From Clostridiales bacterium (lineage in GTDB: Bacteria > Bacillota > Clostridia > Oscillospirales > CAG-272), in contig JAEEKG010000034.1 in assembly GCA_016282315.1 (NCBI GenBank), forward strand, positions 1-34,965: DNA of 34,965 nucleotides, given 5' to 3'. Below are positions 1-33,726 of the stretch, in pieces. The translations under genes were made by a program, and so were the position numbers. The notes beneath the pieces are model-generated. The model had not been told where the DNA came from and searched no databases. It saw nothing but the letters and a program-made list of their open reading frames with translations. Position 1 is the stretch's first letter. Every line of letters begins with the position of its first letter.

Positions 1-379
1 CACAAAAAAGTGCCACTGCTGCGGATTCTGTAATTCTGATATTAAGCTCGAAGACAGAAAATGGGTTTGTCCGAATTGTGGAGTAATGCATGACAGAGAT
101 GAAAATGCGGCAATAAACATCCGTGAAGAAGGAAAAAGAATCTTTGCCGATTACTACCAATCTGTTCTGAAAAAAGAAGAACAGTCGGAAATGAGAGCAA
201 AGCGTAGATCTGAATTCAGACACAGATCACGTAAATAAGAAAAAAACAACCGGTCGGGACGCCGGGGCTAGACTCCTTATGCTTGTGGGGATACCTGCAT
301 CGAAGAGTAAAAAAGATTGGATGATGCAAATCATCTATGAAGCCCCCACCTCAGTGTAAATAGGTGGTGGGTAGTTCAC
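1..379 (+). mobile_element. Right end of an IS200/IS605-family (TnpB-carrying) element
   Basis: This is the right part of an IS200/IS605-type element whose left part lies outside the window. It contains the tnpB 3' end, a non-coding stretch with hairpins, and a terminal imperfect hairpin at about 343-371 (arms CCACCT at 346-351 and AGGTGG at 362-367). It ends in GTAGTTCAC at 371-379, which is typical of clostridial members of this family. These elements transpose as single strands, recognise subterminal hairpins and make no target duplication, so no flanking repeat is expected. The boundary at 379 is inferred from the end motif. Sequence from 380 onward is coding sequence of the interrupted anti-sigma-like gene. 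Confidence 0.8.
2..238 (+). CDS. tnpB: TnpB RNA-guided nuclease (IS605 OrfB family), C-terminal fragment cut by the window edge
   Basis: Only the last 78 codons are visible. They show the C-terminal zinc ribbon (CHCC then CPNC) followed at once by the final RuvC motif [11 protein letters not shown], whose second aspartate is the third catalytic acid of the RuvC nuclease. A basic tail follows ([12 protein letters not shown]). TnpB is the transposon-encoded relative of Cas12. It is guided by an omega-RNA that starts near the tnpB 3' end and runs through the element's right end. The visible part is intact in frame, with no sign of decay, but the upstream RuvC motifs and any tnpA partner cannot be judged here. 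Confidence 0.85.
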
Positions 380-395
380 GCAATGCTAATAATTC
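190..395 (+). ncRNA. Putative TnpB omega-RNA (reRNA) scaffold plus guide
   Basis: TnpB elements make a non-coding RNA that overlaps the tnpB 3' end and crosses the right end, with about 16-20 nt of flanking host DNA as guide. Here the non-coding region 239-379 is GC-richer than its surroundings and holds a perfect 6-bp hairpin (GATGAT at 320-325, ATCATC at 330-335) and the terminal hairpin. The natural guide would begin at 380 (GCAATGCTAATAATTC). The 5' end is a guess. Position and hairpins support the call, but the scaffold fold has not been compared with known families. Confidence 0.45.
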
Positions 396-1259
396 TTCGA
401 TTTGGCTTTTTTCTACCTGAACATTTGTGTAGGTCAGAACAATGTCACTGTTTGAAGGAAAGATTTTGATTAAAATGTTTCCGTTGACTGAAGCCAAAAC
501 ATCTATGACAAGGCACAATTCGTTTTGAGATGTCACATCAAGTTTTAATTCAAAATCGTATGTTTCAAGATAAACATCAGAATCATGGGCTTTGACCAAA
601 ATACTATTCAGACAATTCAGTACTTTTTCATCATCTGATTTTGAAGAAGTTAATCCCGAAATGTTAAATGCCAAAAGAAACTCTTCTAAGTCCATTTTTT
701 GAATTTCACTTGAACAAGCAATTCCTTTAAGTTCACTATTGGTTGCATAGGCGGCGATTGACATGGGAAGGTCTTGCAGTTTGTGCAATTCAAAAACCTG
801 ACCTGCAATTGTAATAGTTGATTCTGATTTTTTTACATATGAATTGTTTGAAAGTTCGCATTCTATGAAATTGTTAAGATGGTTGACTATTCCGTCAATT
901 GCTTCATTTGTCTCACTGGTTGCAGTTGGCGTTACAGATTCAGTATATTTTTCTTCAGTACCTATTGCAGCCTGATTTGATGTTTCAGGAATAGAATTGT
1001 TGTTAAATTCTATCCTTGTTACGTTATAAAGCGATCCATAAGCAGATGGCATTGCATCTTCAGTACGAACATCTTTGGCATTTTGCTTGCTGGCATTGGC
1101 CATGTGGGGTAAGAACAAAACTATGCCTACTACAATGACAAAGCAAGCAGCTATTGAGAGGGAAGTGCTCATGATAATTTTGAGTCTGCGCGCAGCTTTT
1201 TTGTTGTGCTCATCTCTTAAATGAAGAATATATTCGGTTTGCTGTTCACTATTCCTCAT
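351..1259 (-). CDS. Anti-sigma-factor-like single-pass membrane protein with an IS-derived C-terminus
   Basis: The protein has a short charged cytoplasmic N-terminus (about 30 residues), one transmembrane segment (about residues 29-52, rich in I, V, A and F) and a roughly 250-residue extracytoplasmic region without recognised motifs. Its gene overlaps the upstream ECF sigma gene by 11 nt, the usual layout of a sigma/anti-sigma pair. I chose ATG 1259 because GGAGGG lies 8 nt upstream; a start two codons earlier has no better site. The last residues (ELPTTYLH) and the stop codon are read from the IS right end, because the element boundary falls at 379. The original C-terminus has therefore been replaced. 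The regulatory role is inferred from neighbours and topology. Confidence 0.65.
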   Translation of the reverse strand: MRNSEQQTEYILHLRDEHNKKAARRLKIIMSTSLSIAACFVIVVGIVLFLPHMANASKQNAKDVRTEDAMPSAYGSLYNVTRIEFNNNSIPETSNQAAIGTEEKYTESVTPTATSETNEAIDGIVNHLNNFIECELSNNSYVKKSESTITIAGQVFELHKLQDLPMSIAAYATNSELKGIACSSEIQKMDLEEFLLAFNISGLTSSKSDDEKVLNCLNSILVKAHDSDVYLETYDFELKLDVTSQNELCLVIDVLASVNGNILIKIFPSNSDIVLTYTNVQVEKSQIEELLALRELPTTYLH

Positions 1260-1800
1260 ACACAAATCCCTCCTTTTCCAATTGTTCTTTAAGTTTTAAT
1301 TTTGCCCTGTATGTAAGATTGATAACTCTTTTGTTGTTTGTTTTCAACACTGTTGCAATCTGTTCTGTGTCCATGCCCGAAAAGTACATTAGATTTAAGA
1401 CTTCATAGTAATCGTGAGGCAATTTAGCCATTGCTTCATGAAGCATCTTTTCGCGCTCGGTTAAAATGAATTCATCCTCTGGCAACTCATTATCTGACAA
1501 TTCAATATGCTCTGAAATATCTTCCGAAGGATGTCTTTTTTGTGATCTCAGATAGTCAAGAGCCTTGTTTCGGGCTATTTGGTAAAGCCACGTTTTAAAT
1601 GAAGAATTTTCTTTAAAATGTGGTTTTTTTATTATCAGTGAGAGAAAGGTATCAGCGGCTATATCTTCTGCATCTTGTATATTCTTGACATATGAAAAGA
1701 TAAACATGATCATTTTTGAGTTGTGTTCTTCGACAATTCCGCCAAGTGCTGAATCATCTCCGGAGAGGTAACGTTTGTATAGTTCCGTACAGTCAGCCAT
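1249..1800 (-). CDS. ECF (extracytoplasmic function) RNA polymerase sigma factor
   Basis: This is a 183-residue sigma-70 family protein of ECF size. Region 2 is at about residues 22-90: DAEDIAADTF in region 2.2, then FKTWLYQIARNKALDYLR for -10 recognition and melting. Region 4 is at about 112-170, with a helix-turn-helix around YFSGMDTEQIATVLKTNNKRV for -35 recognition. Regions 1 and 3 are absent, as expected for the class. The ATG at 1800 follows a purine-rich AGGAGAAAGG site. The 3' end overlaps the anti-sigma-like gene, so both are probably translated together and the sigma factor is held at the membrane until a signal arrives. The signal and regulon cannot be read from this window. Confidence 0.9.
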   Translation of the reverse strand: MADCTELYKRYLSGDDSALGGIVEEHNSKMIMFIFSYVKNIQDAEDIAADTFLSLIIKKPHFKENSSFKTWLYQIARNKALDYLRSQKRHPSEDISEHIELSDNELPEDEFILTEREKMLHEAMAKLPHDYYEVLNLMYFSGMDTEQIATVLKTNNKRVINLTYRAKLKLKEQLEKEGFVYEE

Positions 1801-1855
1801 ATGATTTCCTTTCTCCTTTCTTTTGACGTTAATTATTTCTTATAATCTCAAAAAA

Positions 1856-2689: not shown

Positions 2690-3615
2690 TTATTTTTCCC
2701 CCTCATCAAGTTAAGTATTTTTGTAAAGTAGTCGGGCAAGTCGCACTCAAAATGCATAAGCTCGTGTGTTTTGGGATGTTCTAATACTAATTCTTTTGCA
2801 TGAAGACATTGTCCTAAAGTATATTGTGAAAATTCTTTTTCCAATTTATTCTTTTCAAGTCCGTATGTTTTATCACCTAAAATTGGTCTGTTAATTGAAG
2901 ACAGATGAACTCTTATTTGATGTGTTCGCCCTGTTTCCAAAACGCACTTCACATAAGTTGCACCTATATCAAATACTTCCAATGGATAAACATGAGTTAC
3001 AGCAGGCTTTCCATCAGCAACAATAGCCATCTTTTTTCGGTCTTTAGGTGAACGGTATATAGGCTTATTAATAGTAATGTTTTCTTCAATTTTACCTAAA
3101 GCTATTGCGTGATAAATCCTGTGCATTCTATGATCTTTTAATTGTGAAGAAAGAGCCAGGTGAGCGTCATCATTTTTTGCAGCTACAATAAGGCCGCTTG
3201 TGTCTTTATCTATTCTGTGAACAATACCCGGTCTCATTACTCCTCCGATTCCCGAAAGAGAATCTTTACAATGGTAGAGAAGAGCAGATACAAGTGTTCC
3301 TTCATTATTGCCTGCTGCAGGATGCACTACCATGCCTTTAGGTTTGTTGACAACAATAATGTCGTTGTCTTCGTAAACAATATCCAAAGGAATGTTTTCG
3401 GGTTCTGCTTTGCAGGGCTCAGCCTGAGGTATCGTCACATCAATACAATCGTTCAATCTTGTCTTATAGTTTTTGTCCTTTATTGAACCATTGACTTTTA
3501 CCAACCCGTCTTCGATGAGCTTTTGAGCTCTGGAGCGAGTTACTCCCATAAAAGAAGAGACAAAAATGTCTAATCTCAAAGCAATTTTTGTCTCATCATT
3601 AATCAATTCAATCAT
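2686..3615 (-). CDS. rluD: RluD-type ribosomal large subunit pseudouridine synthase
   Basis: The protein isomerises uridine to pseudouridine in 23S rRNA. An N-terminal S4 RNA-binding domain (about residues 12-70, SRAQKLIEDGLVKVNG) is followed by the RluA/RluD catalytic domain with the signature HRIDKDTSGL, whose first aspartate is the nucleophile, and later GRTHQIRVHL. The reading frame is open to 3657, but ATG 3615 (MIELINDETKIALRLDIF) matches the family's usual N-terminus and overlaps the lspA stop by 8 nt. ATG 3627 is an alternative. lspA followed by rluD is a common Firmicute pair. The exact uridines modified cannot be told from sequence. Confidence 0.9.
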   Translation of the reverse strand: MIELINDETKIALRLDIFVSSFMGVTRSRAQKLIEDGLVKVNGSIKDKNYKTRLNDCIDVTIPQAEPCKAEPENIPLDIVYEDNDIIVVNKPKGMVVHPAAGNNEGTLVSALLYHCKDSLSGIGGVMRPGIVHRIDKDTSGLIVAAKNDDAHLALSSQLKDHRMHRIYHAIALGKIEENITINKPIYRSPKDRKKMAIVADGKPAVTHVYPLEVFDIGATYVKCVLETGRTHQIRVHLSSINRPILGDKTYGLEKNKLEKEFSQYTLGQCLHAKELVLEHPKTHELMHFECDLPDYFTKILNLMRGKNN

Positions 3616-4183
3616 GTTTTTTTTCATCCTCGACAGTTTGTTCTGTTTGAGTCTCATCCGAACTCAAAGCCGGTTGAGTTTCTGTCTCGCTTACGTTGGT
3701 TTCTTCTTTTTTGTCTTTCTTCTTTTCTGATCTGAACAAAGTTTTGTTGATAAACACAAGGTATATGAACAACATGATTCCGCCTATTACAACACAGCTG
3801 TCTGCTATATTGAATACCGGATATTCTATAAAAGTAACTTCTATGAAATCAACAACACTTCCGATGAACAATCTGTCTATCATGTTTCCGATTGCTCCAC
3901 CCCATATCAAAGACATTGCGATGGCAAAAAAGTAACCGAAACCTCTCAATTTGTATGTGATAATCGGGATTGCAATGATGGCAAGAGCCGTAAGCACAAG
4001 GAAGATCCATCTGTGATCAGAAAGAATTCCCCAAGCAGCGCCTTCGTTGCGTACATATGTAAATGATAAAACTTTTTCAATAATAACAATGCTGTCGCCA
4101 ACTTCCATGTTGGTTGAGACAATTGTTTTACTCAGCTGATCGAATACAACGACCAGTATAGATATCGCTAAACAAGTTGACAT
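3608..4183 (-). CDS. lspA: Lipoprotein signal peptidase (signal peptidase II) with an extra charged C-terminal tail
   Basis: This membrane aspartyl protease cuts prolipoproteins just before the lipid-modified cysteine. Four transmembrane segments are visible in residues 1-150, and the two catalytic aspartates lie in GNMIDRL..VVDFI and FNIADSCVVIG. The conserved N-terminal DQLSK and NEGAAWG motifs are also present. The family is usually about 150-170 residues. Here some 40 extra residues follow, hydrophilic and acidic/lysine-rich (EKKKDKKEETNV through VEDEKKHD). The start at 4183 is 1 nt after the divIVA stop. Its substrates would include the three lipoproteins in this window (the FKBP protein and both serpins). 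Confidence 0.93.
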   Translation of the reverse strand: MSTCLAISILVVVFDQLSKTIVSTNMEVGDSIVIIEKVLSFTYVRNEGAAWGILSDHRWIFLVLTALAIIAIPIITYKLRGFGYFFAIAMSLIWGGAIGNMIDRLFIGSVVDFIEVTFIEYPVFNIADSCVVIGGIMLFIYLVFINKTLFRSEKKKDKKEETNVSETETQPALSSDETQTEQTVEDEKKHD

Positions 4184-16664: not shown

Positions 16665-19085
16665 ATGGTGACTAGAGAACATATAAGTGAAAAGGTATTG
16701 CCTTGCCTGGCTATAAGAGGCGCAGTTTCTTTTCCGAAAATTCCAATGAATATTGATGTCGGCAGAGCAATATCCAGAAAAGCTGTCGATGTCGCTATGT
16801 CAAACGACAGCATTATTATGATGGTTTGCCAAAAGGACCAGAGCGTGGATAACCCGGGTCCTGATGATTTGTACAAAATTGGCACAACCGCGAAAATAAC
16901 ACAGAAAATTCGTGAAAACGGCGGAAGCTACAGAATACTCGTTGAGCCTATATACAGGGCAGAGATAAAAGAATTCATAGACAATAGCAAATATCTTGAA
17001 GTTGATGTTTTTGAAAAGGAAGTATTTGTAGACAACAGAAGTGTTAAAGCAGAAGCACTTTTAAAGGATTTGAGAACTTCCATTGTGGATTTCATTTCCA
17101 TGATTCCTAAGTTTTCAAGCAATATCAAAAACCTCATAAACAGCATAGAAGATTTGTCAACTCTTTGTGACTTGGTTGGCTCGAATATCGTAGCTTCACT
17201 TGAAGATAAGCAAACCCTTCTAGAAGAATTCAATCCAATGCGCAGAGCTGAAAAGCTTATGATCATTCTTGAAAAAGAAAAAGAACTCATAGAAACCGAA
17301 GAGAGAATTCAGAAAAAGGTCAGAAGCAAGATTGACAAGAGTCAAAGAGAGTATTATTTGCGTGAACAAATGAAAGCTATTTCCGATGAACTCGGAGAGG
17401 GCGGAGAGAATGGTTCAGAAGCAAGTGAATACGAAAAGAAAATCGCTGCACTGAAAACAACCGAAGAAGTAAAAGACAAACTTCGCAAGGAAGTCAAAAA
17501 ACTGAACAAAGTCCCTTACGGCTCAGCTGAAGCATCTGTTATAGCAACATATCTGGATACAGTTTTGTCCATTCCTTTCGGAACAAGAACAAAGGATCGT
17601 ATGGATATACCAACAGTTCAGAAGATTCTGGACAAGGATCACGATGGTCTGAAAGAAGTCAAGGACAGGATTATTGAGTATATTGCTGCTCTCAAACTTA
17701 ACCCTGATCTAAAGAACCAGATATTATGTCTTGTCGGACCTCCCGGAACAGGTAAAACATCAGTTGCTTCTTCTATTGCCAGAGCGCTTAATAGGAAGTT
17801 TGTAAGAATTTCTCTCGGCGGAATTAGAGATGAAGCAGATATCAGGGGACACAGAAAAACTTATATAGGTTCTATGCCGGGCAGAATTATTAACGCTGTA
17901 ATTACAGCCGGAACACAGAACCCAGTCATTTTGATGGATGAAGTTGACAAACTTACAAGAGATGCACACGGAGACCCCGCATCTGCGCTTTTGGAAGTAC
18001 TCGACAATGAACAGAACAAAGCATTCAGAGATCACTACATTGAAGTGCCGATTGATTTGTCAGACTGCTTGTTCATCACAACAGCAAACACACTTGCTAC
18101 AATACCGGAACCACTCCTTGACAGAATGGAAGTTATTTCCATGAAGATTTACACAAGGTTTGAAAAACTTGGTATTGCAAAGAATCATTTGATTCCAAAA
18201 CAATGCAAGATTCACGGACTCACTTCAAAAACATTCAAGATGACAGATGAAGCTGTCCTTGAACTCATAGATACATACCTGAAAGAAGCCGGAGTAAGAA
18301 ATCTTGAGAGATATATCGCTAAATGTTGCCGCAGAGCAGCAAAACAGATTTCTTGCAATGAAAAAACCAGCGTGAGAATAACCAAAGACAACTTGGTTGA
18401 ATATGCAGAAGAGAGCAAGCTTATTAAAGATAAGATACTCGACAGCGATGAAGTTGGAACAATTTGCGGAATGGCTTACACGGAACTCGGCGGAGAGATA
18501 ATGCATATTGAAGTTCTTTCATACGATGGAACGGGAAAAATCGAACTTACAGGTTCCCTTGGCGAAGTCATGAAAGAAGCTTCTCAGAATGCCTTGAGTT
18601 ATGTAAAGTCTAAGGCAAATGAACTGGGTATAGAACCAGAATTATTTAAGAAGAGAGACATACATATTAATTTCCCTGAGGGAGCTGTTCCAAAAGATGG
18701 ACCCTCAGCCGGCGTTGCAACTGCAATTGCTATAACAAGTGAACTAACAGGAATACCGGTCAGAAGAGATGTAGCTGTGACTGGTGAGATTACTTTGAGA
18801 GGAAGAGTATTGCCAATTGGCGGACTCAGAGAAAAGACTATGGCTGCATATTTAGCAGGCGTGAAGACAATTATGATACCTGCTGACAACAAAATTGATG
18901 AAAAAGACATCATTGATGAAGTAAAACAGAACGTTGAGATTGTATATATTTCTAAAGTAGATGAAGCTTTGAAAATAGCATTGTCAAAGAATCCATTCGA
19001 AAGAACTGATGACAAAACAGAGAGCGATCTCAGACAACTTGCTTCAACAAATCAACAAGGCAATCAACCAAACATGATCAACTAA
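16665..19085 (+). CDS. lon: ATP-dependent Lon protease (LonA type)
   Basis: Lon is a cytoplasmic hexameric protease that degrades misfolded and regulatory proteins. The 806 residues show the N-terminal substrate-binding domain (about 1-210, LPCLAIRGAVSFPKIPMNI), then a coiled coil. The AAA+ module has Walker A GPPGTGKTS near residue 360 and Walker B ILMDEVDKL. The protease domain has PKDGPSAG (catalytic Ser about 679) and LREKTMAAYLAG (catalytic Lys about 724). The length is normal for LonA. The ATG at 16665 follows TGGAG. lon followed by ysxC is the Bacillus order. Confidence 0.97.
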   Translation: MVTREHISEKVLPCLAIRGAVSFPKIPMNIDVGRAISRKAVDVAMSNDSIIMMVCQKDQSVDNPGPDDLYKIGTTAKITQKIRENGGSYRILVEPIYRAEIKEFIDNSKYLEVDVFEKEVFVDNRSVKAEALLKDLRTSIVDFISMIPKFSSNIKNLINSIEDLSTLCDLVGSNIVASLEDKQTLLEEFNPMRRAEKLMIILEKEKELIETEERIQKKVRSKIDKSQREYYLREQMKAISDELGEGGENGSEASEYEKKIAALKTTEEVKDKLRKEVKKLNKVPYGSAEASVIATYLDTVLSIPFGTRTKDRMDIPTVQKILDKDHDGLKEVKDRIIEYIAALKLNPDLKNQILCLVGPPGTGKTSVASSIARALNRKFVRISLGGIRDEADIRGHRKTYIGSMPGRIINAVITAGTQNPVILMDEVDKLTRDAHGDPASALLEVLDNEQNKAFRDHYIEVPIDLSDCLFITTANTLATIPEPLLDRMEVISMKIYTRFEKLGIAKNHLIPKQCKIHGLTSKTFKMTDEAVLELIDTYLKEAGVRNLERYIAKCCRRAAKQISCNEKTSVRITKDNLVEYAEESKLIKDKILDSDEVGTICGMAYTELGGEIMHIEVLSYDGTGKIELTGSLGEVMKEASQNALSYVKSKANELGIEPELFKKRDIHINFPEGAVPKDGPSAGVATAIAITSELTGIPVRRDVAVTGEITLRGRVLPIGGLREKTMAAYLAGVKTIMIPADNKIDEKDIIDEVKQNVEIVYISKVDEALKIALSKNPFERTDDKTESDLRQLASTNQQGNQPNMIN

Positions 19086-19718: not shown

Positions 19719-20480
19719 ATGCTAATACGATTAATCAGGAGCATGTCAGAAGGTGTTCCGTTTACAGACGTTTTAATTTACATATTGCTTTTGATTCCAG
19801 TTATACTGATTTCATTGACTGTGCACGAATACATGCACGGCTTGGTTTCTTACAAACTTGGCGATCCAACAGCGATGAATTACGGAAGATTGACACTTAA
19901 CCCTATAAAGCACATAGACCCACTTGGAGCAGCATGTATGTTGCTGTTCGGATTTGGATGGGCAAAGCCTGTTCCGATTAATTCAGGTTATTACAAAAAT
20001 ATACGTTTGGGCATTTCTCTTGTGTCTATAGCAGGTCCATTGTCCAACTTCCTAATGGCATTTATTGCAACACCGATTATGCTTTTGATCGGACATATAA
20101 ATGTTGCAGTAGAATCAATGAAACTCCCTGTAATGGCTGTATACAACCTGAAACAATACGGAATCATGCTGAATATAGATAATTTCGGTGGAAAACTGGC
20201 AGTAATCGGTTTCATGTTTTTCCTGTTCTTCGTTGAAATGAACATTATGTTTGGCATATTCAACTTATTGCCTATTCCTCCTCTGGACGGATCCAGATTA
20301 GTAATGGTGTTTTTGCCAACAAAAGTTTATTTTTTCATTGTTAAGTACGAGCTTTATATAAAAATCGCACTCTTAGTCCTGTTATACGTTGGTGTTTTTA
20401 ACGAACCGCTTAACTTCCTTGAAAATGGAGTATTTAGAGGGTTTATAGGGCTTTGGAGTCTAATTCCGGGGTTGGGATAA
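19719..20480 (+). CDS. Site-2 protease family (M50) membrane metalloprotease
   Basis: This is an intramembrane zinc protease of the short, PDZ-less M50 group. The zinc motif HEYMH is at residues 36-40, and the third ligand lies in LLPIPPLDGSR (about residue 190). Several transmembrane segments surround these. The group is common in Clostridia directly before scpA, with unknown substrates. The start at 19719 is 1 nt after ysxC. Its TAA stop overlaps the scpA ATG by one base. Confidence 0.9.
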   Translation: MLIRLIRSMSEGVPFTDVLIYILLLIPVILISLTVHEYMHGLVSYKLGDPTAMNYGRLTLNPIKHIDPLGAACMLLFGFGWAKPVPINSGYYKNIRLGISLVSIAGPLSNFLMAFIATPIMLLIGHINVAVESMKLPVMAVYNLKQYGIMLNIDNFGGKLAVIGFMFFLFFVEMNIMFGIFNLLPIPPLDGSRLVMVFLPTKVYFFIVKYELYIKIALLVLLYVGVFNEPLNFLENGVFRGFIGLWSLIPGLG

Positions 20481-26065: not shown

Positions 26066-26094
26066 TTGACATAAACATACTAAAATGGTATGAT
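26066..26094 (+). promoter_or_regulatory. Consensus sigma-A promoter of the suf operon
   Basis: A perfect TTGACA (26066-26071), 17 bp, then TATGAT (26089-26094). Transcription would start near 26101, about 65 nt before sufC. Confidence 0.8.
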
Positions 26095-26165: not shown

Positions 26166-26930
26166 ATGGCAGAGAACGGATCTATGCTTTTGGATGTTAA
26201 AAAAGTTACAGCAGGAGCGGGAGAAAAAACAATTTTAAACGGACTTTCACTTAAAATTAATGTTGGAGAAACACACGTAATTATGGGACCAAATGGCGCG
26301 GGAAAGTCTACACTTGGACATACAATTATGGGAAGTCCCGAATACAGCATCAAAAAGGGCAAGATTATTTATAAAGATACGGACATAACAGGGTTATCTG
26401 CAGACAAGAGAGCGAAACTTGGAATATTTATGACTTTCCAGGACCCTATTGAAGTGCCCGGTATTACTTTGTCTGCTTTTATCCGCAACTCAATTCATGA
26501 GATGACAGGAAAACCAATAAAGATAGGCGAATTCAACAAGAAATTGTCTGCTTACATGGATTTACTTAAAATGGATCAATCATATGCTCAGAGAGATCTT
26601 AATGTAGGTTTTTCGGGCGGAGAAAAGAAAAAGGCAGAAATACTTCAAATGCTTATGCTCAATCCGGAATTGGTTATTCTGGATGAGACGGATTCTGGTC
26701 TGGATGTTGATGCAGTTAGAACTGTATCTGAAGGTGTTGCCGAATTTGTTAAAAACCATGACAAGTCTTTGCTTATTATCACACATACAACAAAGATTAC
26801 AGAAGCTTTGAACGTCGATTACACTCATGTATTGGTTGGAGGAACAATCGTAAAGACAGGGTCCGGAAAACTGATAGATGAAATCAACAAAGATGGTTTT
26901 GACAAGTATATTAAGGTTGGTGAAAACTGA
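26166..26930 (+). CDS. sufC: Fe-S cluster assembly ATPase SufC
   Basis: SufC is the ABC-type ATPase of the SufBCD scaffold. Walker A is GPNGAGKST, the Q-loop is MTFQDP, the signature is FSGGEKKK, and Walker B is VILDETDSGLD followed by the H-loop ITH. The length of 254 is standard. It opens the suf operon, and its stop overlaps the sufB start by one base (TGATG). No iron or redox regulator gene lies beside it. Confidence 0.97.
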   Translation: MAENGSMLLDVKKVTAGAGEKTILNGLSLKINVGETHVIMGPNGAGKSTLGHTIMGSPEYSIKKGKIIYKDTDITGLSADKRAKLGIFMTFQDPIEVPGITLSAFIRNSIHEMTGKPIKIGEFNKKLSAYMDLLKMDQSYAQRDLNVGFSGGEKKKAEILQMLMLNPELVILDETDSGLDVDAVRTVSEGVAEFVKNHDKSLLIITHTTKITEALNVDYTHVLVGGTIVKTGSGKLIDEINKDGFDKYIKVGEN

Positions 26931-28339
26931 TGCCGGATAAATCAAAAATTGTAGAAACAGACAGAAGTCTCTATGATTTCAGATATGAAGAGAACTCTAA
27001 GGACTACCACAGAGAAGAGTCCGGTATTACAAGAGAAATTGTTGAAAACATATCTAAAGAAAAAGATGATCCCGAGTGGATGAGAGACTTCAGACTTCAT
27101 TGTCTGGATATTTATAACAATACAGATATGCCTAATTGGGGACCTGACACATCAGGACTTGATATGAACAAAATTGCGGCATATGTAAGACACAAAGCAG
27201 GTATGAAATCCGACTGGGAAGATGTGCCTCAGGAAATCAAGGACACATTTGAAAGGCTCGGTATACCTCAGGCGGAAAGGCTGTCTTTAGCCGGAGTTGG
27301 CGCACAATATGACTCAGAACTTGTTTACCACAATCTTAGAAAAGAAGTGGCAGAGACAGGCGTAGTTTATACAGATCTTGAAAGCGCCATGAAGGGCGAA
27401 TACGAAGAAATGATTAAAACTCATTTCATGAAACTCGTTCCTCCGACAGATCACAAATATGCAGCTCTACACGGAGCAGTGTGGTCAGGCGGCTCATTTG
27501 TTTATGTACCTAAGGGCGTAAAAGTAGATATTCCTCTTCAGTCATATTTCAGACTGAATGCAGCAGGGGCAGGCCAGTTTGAGCACACACTCATTATTGT
27601 TGATGAAGGTGCGGATTTGCATTTCATAGAGGGTTGTTCTGCACCTAAATACAACGTTGCAAATCTTCACGCAGGATGCGTTGAATTGTATGTAGGAAAG
27701 AACGCTAAACTTAGGTATTCAACAATCGAAAACTGGTCAAAGAACATGTACAACCTTAACACAAAGCGCGCCATTGTCGAAGAAAACGGCATTATGGAGT
27801 GGGTTTCAGGTTCGTTTGGTTCTCATGTTTCGTATTTATATCCTACTACTATCCTGAAGGGCGAAAACTCCAAGATGGATTATACAGGTATAACTTTTTC
27901 AGGAGCAGGTCAAGACTTGGATACTGGTGCAAAAGTAATTCATCAAGCACCCAATACTACATCTGTAATGGCCTCTAAATCCATAGCAAAGGATGGAGGA
28001 ATAGGCACATTCAGAAGCAGTGTGGTTATTACTTCAAAAGCAATCAATTCAAAAGCAAGTGTTTCTTGTGATTCGCTTATGCTCGACAGCATATCAAGAG
28101 CTGACACAATTCCAGCAATGGATATCAGAACAGACAAAGCGGATGTCGGTCATGAAGCCAGAATCGGTAGAATAAGCGATGAGGCAGTGTATTATCTGAT
28201 GTCAAGAGGCATTAAAGAAGCTGATGCAAGAGCGCTTATAGTTAGCGGTTTTGCTGACTCCGTTTCAAAAGAGTTGCCGCTGGAATACGCAGTTGAAATG
28301 AACAATCTCATTAAACTTGAGATGAATGGAAATATGTAA
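26930..28339 (+). CDS. sufB: Fe-S cluster assembly scaffold SufB
   Basis: SufB is the scaffold on which Fe-S clusters are built in the SufBC2D complex. The 469 residues carry the SufB N-terminal region (EWMRDFRLHCLDIY, MPNWGPD) and the beta-helical core (FVYVPKGVKVDIPLQSYFR, FIEGCSAPKYNVANLHAGCVEL). The C-terminal part has ASVSCDSLMLD, with the conserved cysteine, and DVGHEARIGRISDEAVYYLMSRG. It is full length. It is joined to sufC by a one-base overlap and followed after 11 nt by sufD with GGGGTG upstream. Confidence 0.97.
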   Translation: MPDKSKIVETDRSLYDFRYEENSKDYHREESGITREIVENISKEKDDPEWMRDFRLHCLDIYNNTDMPNWGPDTSGLDMNKIAAYVRHKAGMKSDWEDVPQEIKDTFERLGIPQAERLSLAGVGAQYDSELVYHNLRKEVAETGVVYTDLESAMKGEYEEMIKTHFMKLVPPTDHKYAALHGAVWSGGSFVYVPKGVKVDIPLQSYFRLNAAGAGQFEHTLIIVDEGADLHFIEGCSAPKYNVANLHAGCVELYVGKNAKLRYSTIENWSKNMYNLNTKRAIVEENGIMEWVSGSFGSHVSYLYPTTILKGENSKMDYTGITFSGAGQDLDTGAKVIHQAPNTTSVMASKSIAKDGGIGTFRSSVVITSKAINSKASVSCDSLMLDSISRADTIPAMDIRTDKADVGHEARIGRISDEAVYYLMSRGIKEADARALIVSGFADSVSKELPLEYAVEMNNLIKLEMNGNM

Positions 28340-28350
28340 GGGGTGATATT

Positions 28351-29382
28351 ATGGCAGATCAAATAAGAGTTAATTCACTTCCTTCAAATACTTTCAGATA
28401 TCTCAAAGTAAATGATTCGGTTTTGGATTTGTCGGGATTGTCTCTGAAAAAGCAAAAAGATAATGTGAATTCTAAGATTAGAAAAGCTTTCTCACAAATC
28501 AAGACAGGCATGGGCAAAGAGATAGATTCTTTGACAGATGAATATGCAAAAAAAGAATTGGTGCAGATTAAAAAAGATGAAGAAAAAACTATAAAAATAT
28601 CTGATTTTGAATCATTGAATGGTTTTTTATTCGATATAGACAACAATTCCAGACTTAATGTCATTTTTGATTGTTCCAGCTTCAATGATGACTGTCTGCT
28701 TGGAATAAGCACTAAATTCATTTTAAAAGAGAACTCAAAAGTTAAGTTGACTGTTGTTCAGATGCTTAATAGCAAAAAGAATTTTTTCTTTGATGTAGGT
28801 GCTGAATTATCTAAAGAAGCATCTTTTGAATTCTTGAGTGTTGTTCTCGGCGGAAAGGACAGTTACATCGGATGTAATATTGCTTTGAAAGGCGATAGTT
28901 CTTCATTTAAGAGCAGTACGGGATATATCGTTAAGGCCGGTCAGTCTCTTGATATGAATTATGTGTCTGATCAATATTCAAAAAAGACAAAGAGCAATAT
29001 TGATGTAAGCGGAGTACTTGGAGAAAAAGGTTCAAAAACATTCAGAGGAACAATCGATTTCAAAGTCGGTGCTTCAGGTTCAACAGGAGCTGAAACTGAA
29101 AACGTCCTGACAATAGGGGAAGATATTATTAACAAGAGCGTACCATTAATATTGTGCGGAGAAGAAGACGTTGAAGGTCAGCATGGAGCTTCAATAGGCA
29201 GCTTGTCTGATGAAATCCTCTATTATATGAACAGCAGAGGAATCGACAGAAATACTGCAATAAAGATGGCTTCTTACGCCAATGTTATGAGGACTGCTTC
29301 TCAAATTGAAGATAAGCAATTAGTTGAGAAGATAGAAAAACATATAGACAAATCTTTTGATGGAGTTAAAAATGGATTATAG
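28351..29382 (+). CDS. sufD: Fe-S cluster assembly protein SufD
   Basis: SufD pairs with SufB and helps deliver iron to the scaffold. It is shorter and more divergent than SufB (343 residues). The C-terminal SufBD core is recognisable: SSSFKSSTGYIVKAGQSLDM, KTFRGTIDFKVGASGSTG, and EGQHGASIGSLSDEILYYMNSRGI with the conserved histidine. The N-terminal 100 residues are weakly conserved. It overlaps sufS by 11 nt. Confidence 0.92.
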   Translation: MADQIRVNSLPSNTFRYLKVNDSVLDLSGLSLKKQKDNVNSKIRKAFSQIKTGMGKEIDSLTDEYAKKELVQIKKDEEKTIKISDFESLNGFLFDIDNNSRLNVIFDCSSFNDDCLLGISTKFILKENSKVKLTVVQMLNSKKNFFFDVGAELSKEASFEFLSVVLGGKDSYIGCNIALKGDSSSFKSSTGYIVKAGQSLDMNYVSDQYSKKTKSNIDVSGVLGEKGSKTFRGTIDFKVGASGSTGAETENVLTIGEDIINKSVPLILCGEEDVEGQHGASIGSLSDEILYYMNSRGIDRNTAIKMASYANVMRTASQIEDKQLVEKIEKHIDKSFDGVKNGL

Positions 29383-30580
29383 AGGACATTTTCCTATATT
29401 CAAAAACAATAATTCTGTATATTTAGACAATGCTGCAACATCTCAAAGACCAGGGTGTGTTATAGATGCTGTTTCAGATTTCTATGCTTACAGCAACGCA
29501 AATCCTTTGAGAGGATTGTATGATTTGAGCATGAAAGCAACAAAAAAATACGAAGATGCAAGAAAAAAGGTTGCAGATTTTCTAGGTGCTCAAAGTCCGT
29601 CTGAAATTATTTTTACAAGAAATACAACAGAGTCTATTAATCTTGCCGCATACAGCTATGGTGATGAATACATAAAAGAAGGCGATGATATCGTTATAAG
29701 TGTTATGGAACATCACAGCAATCTTCTTCCATGGCAGAGATTGGCAAAAAACAAACATGCAAATCTCGTTTTTATGGAACCCAAAGAGAATGGTGTTATA
29801 GAAGACGACGAGATTGAAAATAAAATTGGCAAGCAAACTAAGATTGTTGCAATAGCTCAAACGTCTAATGTTTTAGGAATAGAAAATCCTATAGAAAGAA
29901 TAATTGAGCGAGCTCATCAAATGGGTGCTGTCGTACTCATAGATGGCGCTCAATCAGTTCCTCACAAAAAAGTAAATGTAAAAGAACTAGATGCAGATAT
30001 GTTTGCTTTTTCCGGACACAAAATGATGGGGCCTATGGGTGTTGGCGTTCTCTACGTTAAAAATAGTATCATGGAAAAAATGAAACCATTTTTGATGGGT
30101 GGAGAAATGATAGAATACGTGACTAGGGAAGAAGCAACGTTTGCTGAGCTTCCTCACAAATTTGAAGCCGGTACCGTAAATGCAGCTGACGCTTATGGAC
30201 TTAGTGTAGCTATAGATTTTATTAACAAGGTCGGTTATGACTATATTGAAAAGAAAGACACAGAACTGACTCAAAGAATAATAAATGGCATGCAAGCTAT
30301 GGGTCACATTACAGTTTACGGACATGAAGACCCATCAAAACATAATGGAATCGTGACATTTAATGTTGAAGGCGTGCACCCTCATGATGTATCATCAATA
30401 TTGAATGAGGATGGAGTTTGCATCAGAGCGGGACACCATTGCGCACAACCCTTGATGCAGTTCATGAAAGTAGGCTCAACAGCCAGAGCAAGTGTATATT
30501 TTTATAACACTAGTGAAGAAGTAGATAAATTCCTGGACTGTTTGTCAAAAGTCAGGGAGGTTTGCGGATATGGAACTTAA
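29372..30580 (+). CDS. sufS: Cysteine desulfurase SufS
   Basis: SufS takes sulfur from cysteine as a persulfide using pyridoxal phosphate. The PLP lysine is K217 in SGHKMMGPMGVG, and the active-site cysteine is C357 in RAGHHCAQP, the short-loop type typical of SufS (group II). VLIDGAQSVPH and ISVMEHHSN are also present. ATG 29372 has GGAG 6 nt upstream and is preferred to upstream TTG and ATG codons inside sufD. The resulting 402 residues are the normal length. It overlaps sufU by 11 nt. Confidence 0.96.
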   Translation: MDYRGHFPIFKNNNSVYLDNAATSQRPGCVIDAVSDFYAYSNANPLRGLYDLSMKATKKYEDARKKVADFLGAQSPSEIIFTRNTTESINLAAYSYGDEYIKEGDDIVISVMEHHSNLLPWQRLAKNKHANLVFMEPKENGVIEDDEIENKIGKQTKIVAIAQTSNVLGIENPIERIIERAHQMGAVVLIDGAQSVPHKKVNVKELDADMFAFSGHKMMGPMGVGVLYVKNSIMEKMKPFLMGGEMIEYVTREEATFAELPHKFEAGTVNAADAYGLSVAIDFINKVGYDYIEKKDTELTQRIINGMQAMGHITVYGHEDPSKHNGIVTFNVEGVHPHDVSSILNEDGVCIRAGHHCAQPLMQFMKVGSTARASVYFYNTSEEVDKFLDCLSKVREVCGYGT

Positions 30581-31001
30581 ATCTTTATACAGAGAAATCG
30601 TAAATGAACATAATTTAAGACCTTCACATAAGGCTGCAATAGAGAATCCGGACCTGGTGCTCAGGGGAGTAAACCCAAGTTGCGGAGATGATATTTCTCT
30701 TCAGTTGAAATTTGAAGGTGATGTCATTTCAGATGCGGGTTTTGTCGGGACGGGATGTGCCATTTCTCAGGCATCAGCTGATATTATGATAGACAATATA
30801 ATCGGTCTGAACAAAGAAGAGGCTTTAAAGCAAGCAGAATTATTCATGAGTATGATTAAAGGCGAAGCTTTATCTGAAATCCAATTTGATGAATTGGGTG
30901 AAGCATCAGCATTGCAAGATATTTCACATATGCCGGCCAGGGTCAAATGTGCCGAGCTTGGATGGAGAACAATGAAAGAAATGGTAGAAAAAAACAATTA
31001 G
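30570..31001 (+). CDS. sufU: SufU sulfur-transfer protein
   Basis: SufU is a zinc-dependent sulfurtransferase that accepts sulfur from SufS in Gram-positive bacteria. The conserved ligands are C38 (NPSCGDD, with D40), C63 (GTGCAIS) and C127 (RVKCAEL). The length of 143 matches. The region between the second and third cysteines carries the insertion typical of SufU as opposed to IscU. Its stop codon is embedded in the AGGAG ribosome binding site of the first serpin gene. Confidence 0.95.
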   Translation: MELKSLYREIVNEHNLRPSHKAAIENPDLVLRGVNPSCGDDISLQLKFEGDVISDAGFVGTGCAISQASADIMIDNIIGLNKEEALKQAELFMSMIKGEALSEIQFDELGEASALQDISHMPARVKCAELGWRTMKEMVEKNN

Positions 31002-31011
31002 GAGTTTTGTT

Positions 31012-32295
31012 ATGAGAAAATTCATTTTAATTACAGTAAGTTTGTTGCTTTCAATCTGCATTTTGTTTACCAGTGTTTCATGCACAGTTAACCCGATTAC
31101 TCCGAAATACCAAGATAAAGATATTTCAGTGGAGAATCTTCTTGGAAAATATTCAAGCAGAACAGATAAAAGCGGCATTCAGGTTACACAAGACTTTAAG
31201 GATGCGTTGGTTCAGTTTTCTTTTGACATATGCAAAGCTGTAACAAAAAAAGATGGCAATAATGTTGCAATGTCACCTTTGTCTATTTACATATGCCTTG
31301 CAATGATAGCAAACGGAGCCGATGGAGATACCAAGGCTCAGATGGAAGATGTATTGGGCATGAGTATTGCTGATATAAACAAGGGTCTATATGCTTTGCT
31401 CAATGGCTTTACTTCGAGCGAGAATTGCAAATTGGACATAGCAAATTCTGTTTGGTTCAAAGATGATAACATACTTAAGATTCAGGAGAGTTATTTACAG
31501 GAAATAGCTGACTGGTACGAATCTGAGATATATAAGGCTCCTTTTGACAAGCAAACTCTTGAAGATGTAAACAATTGGTCAAGCAATAAAACCAAGGGTT
31601 TAATTGACAAAATTCTTGACTATATATTGGATAATGACGAAGCATTCATTTTGAATGCAGTTTTGTTTGATGCAAAATGGAGAGACGAATACACAAGCAA
31701 AGACATATTGAACAATTACAAATTCAATAACATAGACAAGACAACCACAACAGTGACTATGCTCAAATCTGAAGAACATGTTGTATTTATGGGCACAGAC
31801 TACATAGGCACAAAGAAGGACTATGACGGGCAAAAATACAGTTTCGTTGTTCTTTTACCTAATGAGGATGTTGATTTTTATGAGTTTGTTAATTTCCTTG
31901 ACAAAGAAAAATGGAATGAAATAATGACGGTGGACAAGAATCCTGTGACAGTCAGTCTGTTAATGCCTGAATTTGAGGTTAAAACCGACATGATGCTCAA
32001 TCCTGCTCTTCAAATGTTGGGAATTAAAGATGCATTCGGAAATAAAGCAAACTTCGGAAAAATGGCCGAAATAACACCTGATTGTGATTTGTACCTATCA
32101 AGAGTAATACAAAGAGCGTATGTCAAAGTTGACAGAGTAGGGACAAAAGCTGCAGCATCAACTATAGGTGCAATGACAAATAAATCTGCTTCTAATCCTC
32201 AAACAATTATAGTTGACAGACCTTACGTATACGCAATTATCGACAATGATACTAATTGTCCGATTTTTGTTGGACTTAATGTCAAGTTCAGTTGA
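31012..32295 (+). CDS. Lipoprotein serpin (serine protease inhibitor), copy 1
   Basis: A lipoprotein signal peptide with lipobox TSVSC (Cys at about residue 24) precedes a full serpin domain (about 60-427). Serpin signatures are NVAMSPLSIYICLAMIANGADG, IANSVWFKD, LNAVLFDAKW and the C-terminal DRPYVYAIIDN. The reactive loop hinge GTKAAASTIG has small residues, as in inhibitory serpins. Counting from the hinge glycine as P15, P1 would be Lys, followed by Ser. It should trap a target protease outside the cell while tethered to the membrane. It begins 10 nt after sufU with no terminator between. Confidence 0.93.
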   Translation: MRKFILITVSLLLSICILFTSVSCTVNPITPKYQDKDISVENLLGKYSSRTDKSGIQVTQDFKDALVQFSFDICKAVTKKDGNNVAMSPLSIYICLAMIANGADGDTKAQMEDVLGMSIADINKGLYALLNGFTSSENCKLDIANSVWFKDDNILKIQESYLQEIADWYESEIYKAPFDKQTLEDVNNWSSNKTKGLIDKILDYILDNDEAFILNAVLFDAKWRDEYTSKDILNNYKFNNIDKTTTTVTMLKSEEHVVFMGTDYIGTKKDYDGQKYSFVVLLPNEDVDFYEFVNFLDKEKWNEIMTVDKNPVTVSLLMPEFEVKTDMMLNPALQMLGIKDAFGNKANFGKMAEITPDCDLYLSRVIQRAYVKVDRVGTKAAASTIGAMTNKSASNPQTIIVDRPYVYAIIDNDTNCPIFVGLNVKFS

Positions 32296-32345
32296 TGAGA
32301 TTTTTTAATCATTTGTTCGTCAAAGCTATGTAGGAGGAAGATAAT

Positions 32346-33671
32346 ATGAAAAAAATATTGTTAATATCTACAAGCATGCTGCTTGCTATAAGCATTTTGT
32401 TTACGAGTGTGTCCTGTTCACCTGTAAAAGAATCGGGTAAAGTGACTACGGAAAAAACAGTAGTTGAAGTGAAGGAGTTACAATCACAAAACCTACTTGA
32501 TGGTTACCAGAGTTCTATTACAGATAAAGGAGAAGTAACAAAAGAATTTAAAGATGCTTTGAATGATTTTTCATTTAAGCTTTACAAGGCTGTGACCGAG
32601 AAAAACGGGAAGAATGTAATTGTATCTCCTTTGTCCGTTTACATTTGTTTGGCATTGATAGCAAACGGTGCTGAAGGCGAAACAAGGTCTCAGATGGAAG
32701 AAGTACTTGGCATGAAAGTGGAAGAGGTAAATGAAAGCCTATATAGTTTTGTTGACAGTTTATCTTCTTCCGAAAAATGCAAAGTCAGCATAGCTAATTC
32801 TGTTTGGTTTAAAGATACAAATGGAAATATAAAAGTTAATAGCGAGTATCTGCAGGAAATAGCAGATTGGTATGATTCTGAAATATATAAAGCACCATTT
32901 GATGAAACAACATTGAAAGATATTAATGATTGGTGCAGCAATAAGACAGATGGCCTGATCAACAAAATATTGGATGAAATTAATCCGCAATCTGTAGCAT
33001 ATCTCATTAATGCGGTTTTGTTTGACGCAAAGTGGGAGAAGGCATATAAAGATGAGGACATAATTGAAAATTATGATTTCACCAATTATGACAAAACGAA
33101 AACAAAAGTAACTATGTTACATTCTAGAGAAGGTGTCTATTATACCGGAAAAGATTTTGTGGGAACTCAAAAGAGGTATGCTGGCGGACAATATAGTTTG
33201 GTTGTCCTGCTTCCTAACAGTGACGTAGATATTTATGATTTTGTCAATTCTTTAGATCGCGACAAATGGGCTCAAGTCATAATGTCTCATTTTGCCAGAA
33301 GCACACTAGTTGATGTAAATTTGTTAATGCCTGAATTTGAAAGCGAAAGCGAGATGCCTTTGAACGATGTATTGCAATCAATGGGAATGAAAGATGCTTT
33401 CAATTCAAATGCAGATTTTACAAATATGTTCAATGAAAGCAAAAAAGGTGATTTCTGTATATCAAGTATAAAACAGAAAGCAATCATCAAAGTAAACAAA
33501 GAAGGAACAAAAGCTGCAGCTGTAACTATCGGAGAGATGACAGCAACATCTGTTGAGCCTGTGAGCCAAACCGTAAATATCACCCTTGACAGACCTTTTG
33601 TTTACGCCATAGTAGATAATTTTACATTTTGTCCGTTGTTTGTCGGAGTCAATGTAAATATTAACAATTAA
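32346..33671 (+). CDS. Lipoprotein serpin, copy 2
   Basis: This is a tandem paralog of the previous gene, roughly half identical by eye, with the same lipobox (TSVSC). Serpin motifs are NVIVSPLSVYICLALIANGAEG, IANSVWFKD, INAVLFDAKW and DRPFVYAIVDN. The hinge GTKAAAVTIG is of inhibitory type. The reactive loop differs: the predicted P1 is Thr where copy 1 has Lys, and the loop from the hinge glycine to DRP is three residues longer. That suggests a different target protease. It has its own strong GGAGG site 50 nt after copy 1 and is followed by a terminator. Confidence 0.93.
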   Translation: MKKILLISTSMLLAISILFTSVSCSPVKESGKVTTEKTVVEVKELQSQNLLDGYQSSITDKGEVTKEFKDALNDFSFKLYKAVTEKNGKNVIVSPLSVYICLALIANGAEGETRSQMEEVLGMKVEEVNESLYSFVDSLSSSEKCKVSIANSVWFKDTNGNIKVNSEYLQEIADWYDSEIYKAPFDETTLKDINDWCSNKTDGLINKILDEINPQSVAYLINAVLFDAKWEKAYKDEDIIENYDFTNYDKTKTKVTMLHSREGVYYTGKDFVGTQKRYAGGQYSLVVLLPNSDVDIYDFVNSLDRDKWAQVIMSHFARSTLVDVNLLMPEFESESEMPLNDVLQSMGMKDAFNSNADFTNMFNESKKGDFCISSIKQKAIIKVNKEGTKAAAVTIGEMTATSVEPVSQTVNITLDRPFVYAIVDNFTFCPLFVGVNVNINN

Positions 33672-33685
33672 CAATCGCAATTTTG

Positions 33686-33726
33686 CCCCGAAGCACCATT
33701 AGAGTGTTTCGGGGTATATGTTTTTA
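33686..33726 (+). terminator. Rho-independent terminator after the serpin pair
   Basis: CCCCGAA (33686-33692) pairs with TTCGGGG (33708-33714), with an inner CAC/GTG stem, followed by TATATGTTTTT. It closes the suf-serpin unit. Confidence 0.85.

Follow-up and report, generated by a model that had tools for sequence, protein, structure and literature searches.

Tandem serpins with different reactive loops and different predicted promoters in a Clostridiales bacterium

Results

Two serpin genes stand in tandem behind a SUF operon

The window analysed here is the whole 34,965-nt stretch of contig JAEEKG010000034.1 (assembly GCA_016282315.1) from a Clostridiales bacterium (GTDB Oscillospirales; CAG-272), and its subject is a pair of serpin genes that follow a SUF operon near the right end; a gene for an extracytoplasmic function (ECF) sigma factor and that of its putative membrane partner lie on the other strand at the left end (Table 1). 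The window is contig C58 of a 1.9 Mb genome (G000; 110 contigs, 94% complete) that holds a third serpin on contig C17. A preliminary description made from the letters alone had recognised tandem serpins with a shared hinge, GTKAAAxTIG, and this stands: both open reading frames (ORFs) are complete and PF00079 (MEROPS I4; cut-off 27 bits) covers them over nearly its whole profile, at E 3e-78 in copy 1 and 2e-89 in copy 2. With such E-values, and with a serpin in 220 of the 395 family genomes searched, the identity of the tandem genes is not a matter of chance, even if a search of NCBIfam gave no serpin match for the window proteins. The two copies are 54-56% identical, with 56% in their bodies and 37% in their loops from P9 onward.

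Table 1. Features of the window, and sigma-serpin ORFs of related loci (AF2, AlphaFold2; pLDDT, predicted local distance difference test; pTM, predicted template modelling score; aa, amino acids).
Feature	Position	Strand	Remarks
Serpin copy 1 (K type)	31012..32295	+	427 aa, complete; PF00079 264 bits; leader with Cys24; AF2 pLDDT 80, pTM 0.82
Reactive-centre loop, copy 1	32140..32214	+	hinge Gly P15 to residue before DRP; canonical P1 Lys codon 32182-32184
Serpin copy 2 (T type)	32346..33671	+	441 aa, complete; PF00079 301 bits; leader with Cys24; AF2 pLDDT 78, pTM 0.81
Reactive-centre loop, copy 2	33504..33587	+	hinge Gly P15 to residue before DRP; canonical P1 Thr codon 33546-33548
Predicted ECF-type promoter TGAGATT-N15-CGTC before copy 2	32296..32321	+	in the gap between copies 1 and 2; ends 24 nt before copy 2 start codon
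Predicted ECF-type promoter TGAGATT-N15-CGTC of sigma gene	1825..1850	-	ends 24 nt before sigma gene start
ECF sigma factor	1249..1800	-	Sigma70_r2 and r4_2; reciprocal best match of the serpin-operon sigma in G001 and G002
Membrane protein, putative anti-sigma factor	351..1265	-	overlaps sigma gene end; N-terminus matches profile of sigma-adjacent membrane proteins, E 9e-7
SUF operon sufC-sufB-sufD-sufS-sufU	26166..31001	+	sufC, sufB, sufS, sufU above NCBIfam cut-offs; sufD 155 bits, below cut-off of 222
Predicted sigma-70-type promoter before sufC	26066..26094	+	11/12, extended TG; stretch kept in G003 and G004
Terminator-like hairpin after copy 2	33684..33716	+	13 pairs, then T run; only such site between genes
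Sigma + serpin ORF with anti-sigma-like N-terminus	L017:674-2549		profile E 5e-8
Sigma + serpin ORF with anti-sigma-like N-terminus	L066:3103-5417		profile E 2e-9
Sigma + serpin ORF with anti-sigma-like N-terminus	L163:932-2913		profile E 6e-3
Sigma + serpin ORF with anti-sigma-like N-terminus	L174:3087-5185		profile E 5e-6
Sigma + serpin ORF with anti-sigma-like N-terminus	L193:3218-5130		profile E 4e-7

The AF2 models of both copies have low confidence around and after P1. In a fold search with the copy 2 model, the only copy searched, the 50 PDB matches listed were all serpins. Tengpin is the best match of copy 2 both by sequence (272.6 bits) and by fold, and together with miropin it forms the best bacterial structure matches in the PDB comparison. 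The bacterial Group T serpins have been described as a tree grouping with miropin, the siropins and tengpin (PMC8233489).

Both proteins begin with nearly the same leader, which ends in LFTSVSC, and its Cys24 is nearly invariant across a 10-row alignment. By its pattern (a lipobox followed by Cys) this leader is of the lipoprotein type, and it suggests that both copies are secreted, membrane-anchored serpins. A hydrophobic segment followed by [AGS]C is found in 141 of the 163 family serpins of at least 380 aa; a strict lipobox pattern (92/163) was dropped as it overlooked obvious leaders. Other surface anchoring also occurs in the family, where two serpins (L024:1489-3177 and L115:234-2450) carry S-layer homology domains (PF00395), and several more serpin ORFs reach 600-1300 aa.

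The reactive loops differ at and after P1

Counted with the invariant hinge Gly as P15, the canonical P1 is Lys in copy 1, whose loop reads GTKAAASTIGAMTNK↓SASNPQTIIV-DRP (the arrow stands behind P1), and Thr in copy 2, whose loop reads GTKAAAVTIGEMTAT↓SVEPVSQTVNITL-DRP, just as the preliminary description had predicted; P1' is Ser in both. The hinges are GTKAAASTIG and GTKAAAVTIG, and positions P17-P8 (RVGTKAAAST and KEGTKAAAVT) follow the small-residue pattern ExGTEAAAA of the inhibitory hinge, with R or K at P17 and K at P13. From the hinge Gly to the residue before DRP, loop 2 is indeed three residues longer (28 vs 25), and because the spacing from hinge to P1 is identical the extra residues must lie on the primed side. 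What the P1 residue does not reveal is the class of the target, for which a trypsin-like protease (Lys) and an elastase- or subtilisin-like one (Thr) had been proposed: neutrophil elastase and proteinase 3 cleave the siropins of Eubacterium siraeum at P3-P2 and P6-P5 (PMC5127057), and miropin uses several bonds according to a review (PMC8201313).

Loops evolve faster than bodies and differ between tandem neighbours

The family search scored up to four matches per genome, in relatives' genomes that are mostly many-contig drafts. Six further loci apart, the serpins from beyond the window's genus (the set G000, the window genome, with G001, G002, G003 and G004) are the strongest matches listed, and weak serpins are under-represented. 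The main set comprises 165 serpin ORFs, none shorter than 318 aa, taken from the loci, with site rates computed on 164; loop comparisons dropped the first tandem copy of G004, which has no loop in the assembly, and L144, which has no DRP match.

A comparison of loop and body rates, as the preliminary description had proposed, finds the loops faster, contrary to the refuting outcome it had named: over P6-P5' the mean site rate is 1.94 (P3'-P5' were aligned without gaps, and differences in length raise their rates), while the body averages 0.71 (about a 2.7-fold difference), and none of the 318 contiguous body windows of equal width attains the loop mean. P3, P2 and P1 lie at or above the 97th percentile of body sites, while P15, P14, P12, P10 and P8 are among the slowest sites, which fits the expectation for working inhibitors. 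The canonical P1 in the 163 hinge-bearing serpins is Glu in 47, Gly in 30, Thr in 27, Lys in 18, Ala in 12, Asn in 11 and another residue in 18. To our knowledge Glu is unusual as the commonest P1 among known serpins; its excess may reflect Glu-specific proteases or a scissile bond that lies off the canonical register.

Tandem neighbours were compared by ranking their loop similarity against that of other-genome pairs of equal body identity. The mean loop percentile of the 23 neighbour pairs is 0.30, and only 3 of them share their P1 where 6.3 would be expected; by array (n=19) the mean is 0.28, with 16 of 19 below 0.5 (p=0.0024), and without the window's genus (16 arrays) it is again 0.28 (p=0.0076). 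Four control segments of the body gave 0.60 (p=0.16), 0.37 (p=0.096), 0.35 (p=0.036) and 0.50 (p=0.95); the first leans the opposite way (0.66 without the window's genus, p=0.023), and since two of the others lean as the loop does, the divergence may in part be common to other exposed segments. The suggestion that duplicated inhibitors diverge in their loops is thus supported for the tandem arrays of the family and not supported for the window pair, the loop divergence of which is ordinary for its body divergence (percentile 0.45). One locus (L060:4771-12481) has five serpins in a row behind ECF sigma and membrane protein genes, with G, G, K, T and G at P1.

Two loop types recur within the genus

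TNKS, the core of the K type, occurs in 3 of the 163 loops (window copy 1 and the second serpins of G003 and G004), and ATSV, that of the T type, in another 3 (window copy 2, the leading serpin of G003 and the downstream one of G001), all within the window's genus; the two types thus do not drift freely. The G001 and G003 T-type copies, with bodies 36% identical, have ATSVGPG in common and rank first in loop score among 2674 similar-body pairs, in a comparison picked post hoc from about 15 possible ones. Six of the seven codons differ silently between the two, so the sameness is one of amino acids; a recent transfer of the loop is thereby ruled out, and the shared stretch reads as either old conservation or convergence. 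Recent gene conversion of the window pair is likewise ruled out, given 62% nucleotide identity, a longest identical run of 19 nt and an identity of 0.41-0.63 between the codons of shared residues throughout the alignment.

In the window and in G001 the K-type gene comes first (its loop in G001 reads NTK↓GA) and the T-type gene second; G003 has them in the order T-K, and by body the order in G004 matches that in G003. Both tandem copies of G004 are interrupted (L051:9270-11638), the first without its loop region and the second with its start region out of frame, through assembly error or decay.

An ECF-type motif marks the sigma gene and the T-type serpin

TGAGATT-N15-CGTC has the layout typical of ECF promoters. 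Allowing one mismatch at N15 on both strands, the window holds two sites only, one before the sigma gene and one before copy 2, both exact where 0.06 would be expected, and ahead of the sigma gene the motif is conserved among G000, G003 and G004. Among 162 serpin upstream regions it is exact in five and carries one mismatch in one (that of the third serpin of G000, on C17), all six in G000, G003 and G004, with an N15 spacer and at a distance of 24-34 nt from the start; each of the remaining 156 has at least two mismatches, and 3,240 shuffles of the upstream regions gave none without a mismatch and about 24 with one. In both G003 and G004 one exact motif separates sufU from the first serpin and another precedes a separate serpin (on C105 and C22), so that of the ten serpins of these three genomes six stand directly behind the motif, two follow in the row (the second copies of G003 and G004) and two are without it. 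Genome-wide, the motif outnumbers its reversed control by 7 to 3 in G000, 5 to 0 in G001, 3 to 0 in G002, 13 to 0 in G003 and 10 to 1 in G004.

In the tandem loci of G000, G003 and G004, it is the T-type serpin that immediately follows the motif (in G004 judged by body). The K-type serpin precedes the T-type one in the window and follows it in G003 and G004, and therefore in the window it would depend on the SUF operon: the two copies differ in their predicted promoters, a difference that the preliminary description had overlooked. A lipoprotein gene of one kind (L239:561-1466, L237:1552-2448 and L252:578-1474; DUF4349 by Pfam in both of the two scanned) has the same motif upstream, at N15 or N16, in G000, G003 and G004 and is likely a further member of the predicted regulon.

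The sigma factor is orthologous to those of serpin operons

The window sigma factor is 39% and 41% identical to serpin-operon sigma factors of G001 and G002, reciprocal best matches beyond which the next reach E 1e-9 or weaker; its orthologues in G003 and G004 are 80-82% identical. In G001 the genes run ECF sigma, membrane protein, serpin, serpin and small lipoprotein (L047:8118-12882), with 4-nt overlaps or tiny gaps, and this operon fills the slot behind prfB that SUF and the serpins hold in the window; in G002 they run ECF sigma, membrane protein and serpin (L223:4060-6719). Behind the sigma and membrane pair of G003 there is no serpin, the next gene being on the opposite strand, and in G000 and G004 there is none within the some 350 nt before the contig ends, beyond which a serpin is possible. 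No Pfam family above cut-off names the membrane proteins scanned, and we infer the putative anti-sigma role from place, topology and coupling. Pfam also finds signal peptidase II (3608-4183, minus strand), Lon (16665-19085) and an M50 membrane peptidase (19719-20480) in the window; M50 enzymes are of a kind able to set sigma factors free through intramembrane cleavage of anti-sigma factors.

Copy 1 is probably read with the SUF operon

Copy 1 starts 10 nt behind the end of sufU on the same strand. The promoter predicted before sufC and the position of the only intergenic terminator-like site, after copy 2, suggest that copy 1 is probably co-transcribed with SUF; taken alone the promoter scan is weak, with 34 promoter-like sites against 30.2 expected, and terminator-like sites between 25500 and 34000 number 4 against 4.1 in shuffles. 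The layout prfB, SUF and two serpins is common to the window, G003 and G004. We rejected the idea that serpins are linked to SUF throughout the family: SufU relatives of at least 45% identity are found in 8 of 196 family genomes (no close one was found in G001), and serpins follow sufU in G000, G003 and G004, other genes in the five others covered. SufD (28351-29382) is only 58-59% identical between G000 and G003 or G004, against 96% for SufB, 90-91% for SufC and 87-91% for SufU.

Sigma genes precede about a third of the family serpin loci

The loci contain 50 sigma-like ORFs, one of them in a locus with a duplicate serpin. Relative to the nearest serpin, the other 49 lie upstream on the same strand in 43 cases, downstream on the same strand in three and downstream on the opposite strand in two, and the remaining one is the window's own at 29 kb; the DNA covered up- and downstream of serpins is nearly equal (518 vs 510 kb). 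Where 1.5 kb or more of upstream DNA was covered (105 serpin genes or arrays), a sigma gene stands within 2.6 kb upstream in 33 cases, usually with a membrane protein gene in between, the product of which has a hydrophobic segment at about residues 28-48. We know of no sigma linkage for miropin.

Five loci have no separate membrane gene; there the serpin ORF overlaps the sigma stop and carries an N-terminal cytoplasmic and membrane segment of its own, giving apparent anti-sigma-serpin fusions (Table 1). The profile that scores these N-termini was built from 32 stand-alone proteins and includes the membrane segment, so the score is partly one of hydrophobicity, and the match of L163 is weak. 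Outside the five and the duplicate, all matches with E <1e-5, the window partner included, adjoin a sigma gene, except the contig-edge L111, which precedes a serpin. The five fusion serpins are scattered through the tree, where the 5 cases take 5 changes, and keep the hinge GTKAAA or GTKAGA.

Discussion

The window probably encodes two surface-anchored inhibitory serpins with different bait loops, of which copy 1 would be expressed with the SUF operon and copy 2 through the window ECF sigma factor from a promoter of its own. The serpins would be suicide inhibitors directed at serine and perhaps also cysteine proteases that come to the surface of what its named relatives suggest is a gut-type Clostridia bacterium; they would offer the exposed loop for cutting and trap the protease as an acyl-enzyme upon insertion of the loop into sheet A, both partners being spent. 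The K type (MTNK↓SA) would then face a basic-specific protease and the T type (M-x-AT↓SV) an elastase- or subtilisin-like one. Copy 1 would be the SUF-co-expressed inhibitor and copy 2 the inducible one, switched on by the sigma factor, which would also regulate itself and probably the third serpin of the genome. That the promoter of copy 2 matches that of the sigma gene suggests production on demand, against proteases outside the cell.

Several observations weigh against this interpretation. Within 100 nt upstream of copy 1 there is no motif, the best site having 5 mismatches, and ECF control of this copy is unsupported; nor is there one before a distant serpin at a contig edge of G004 (C112, L013:1-1017; a short locus outside the main set, checked separately), with 4 mismatches in 220 nt. 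The excess of motifs is small in G000 itself, several genomic matches lie inside coding sequence, presumably by chance, and the sigma promoters of G001 and G002 read TGAGAAA and TGAGATA with N15-CGAC (3 and 2 mismatches). The window membrane partner has no Pfam anti-sigma domain and is without a match in G001 or G002, though it has matches in G003 and G004. Finally, the body tree unites the two window copies (93/95) rather than the copies with like loops, and in approximately unbiased (AU) tests a like-loop grouping costs 7.9 log units for the K type (p=0.14, not rejected) and 10.4 for the T type (p=0.045, barely rejected). As a separate observation, the sequence upstream of the L013 serpin resembles, by eye, the end of a sensor kinase gene.

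As to the history of the pair, body site patterns lean the same way as the tree (10 v 3 v 6) and the loop gives 0 v 3 v 0; neither the G001 pair nor the lone G002 serpin belongs to the group (100/100) that the tandem copies of the window, G003 and G004 form. We lean towards an old K/T pair, chiefly on the strength of the promoter evidence.

Among other explanations, the one that survives best, though rather unlikely in our view, is that both copies are broad-spectrum inhibitors like miropin, the Lys/Thr difference being largely irrelevant and the duplication a matter of dosage or separate regulation. The same two human proteases cut both siropins away from P1 despite 48% loop identity (PMC5127057), miropin is reviewed as using more than one bond (PMC8201313), PDB titles list miropin induced by trypsin and by subtilisin, and the loop divergence of the window pair is average; against this, the P4-P1' core of either loop type is largely preserved from one species to another, and serpins that stand in tandem are mostly unlike each other in the family at large. 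Also unlikely, and a little more so, is that the serpins are directed at secreted or envelope proteases of the cell itself instead of those of a host or competitor: sigma control of the envelope-stress type would suit internal, misregulated proteolysis equally, and in C. thermocellum serpins reportedly shield the cellulosome against subtilisin-like proteases (PMC12484212), whereas the extracytoplasmic location and the diverse loops of the family better fit variable outside targets, and none of the three Pfam proteases found in the part of the window genes scanned is an obvious serpin target. Plain duplication and drift, with exposed loops changing while both serpins do the same job, is very improbable: the pair's loops differ as their bodies would predict and two of the four control segments lean as the loop does in tandem pairs, but the loop rate exceeds that of every body window, and similar loops turn up in more than one species while their codons differ silently, as in the ATSVGPG pair with its (post hoc) top score.

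A pair of inhibitors with distinct loops and distinct predicted control, as we favour, resembles known systems in part. The siropins are likewise two serpins with an inhibitory hinge in one gut Clostridia species, with 60% identity overall and 48% in the loops against 54-56% and 37% (by our own loop limits) in the window; siropin 1 is reported as intracellular, siropin 2 has Val at P6, where it is cut, and the window loops have Gly there, and the sections of the paper seen mention neither a tandem layout nor a promoter (PMC5127057). Cthe_0190 and Cthe_0191 of Clostridium thermocellum are also a pair of serpins, numbered consecutively as locus tags and listed with transcript levels that are much alike, so that tandem bacterial serpins are already in print at least in that form; they are listed as cellulosomal components, whereas the window copies carry lipoprotein-type leaders (PMC3990059). 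Tengpin of Thermoanaerobacter tengcongensis (2pee) is 35-36% identical to copy 2 and has another loop, and miropin of Tannerella forsythia (5ncs), the native and cleaved structures of which match the copy 2 model, is only 29-32% identical and comes from a Bacteroidota species. Tandem copies with functional divergence are described for woodrat SERPINA3, a mammalian case of rapid birth and death as opposed to the loop types that recur here (PMC12646145). For control from outside, the closest parallel is the serpin of Bifidobacterium breve, which is under a two-component system instead of an ECF sigma factor and membrane partner; in B. longum serpin control responds to sugars (PMC8012564). In the open-licence literature we found no link between serpins and ECF sigma or anti-sigma factors, the one paper with all three terms leaving them unconnected in the parts available (PMC10059941).

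More tentatively, and with more doubt than we attach to the reading of the pair itself, the family serpins could belong to a protease-sensing sigma circuit, in which cleavage of the serpin or capture of a protease outside the cell might, in the fusions, free the sigma factor. The window would then be a separated version, with the sigma and membrane pair 29 kb away, its promoter still marking the T-type serpin while the K-type copy has come under SUF.

How gut and rumen bacteria sense and blunt proteases from outside is poorly known, and in the papers covered here the regulation of bacterial serpins is described for bifidobacteria alone (PMC8012564). A conserved circuit of sigma factor, promoter and serpin with a defined 26-bp site would be open to reporter assays. 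The fusions, if confirmed, would be a new kind of protease sensor, the inhibitor doubling as detector, and the pairing of a K and a T loop predicts that a single cell meets two separate classes of protease.

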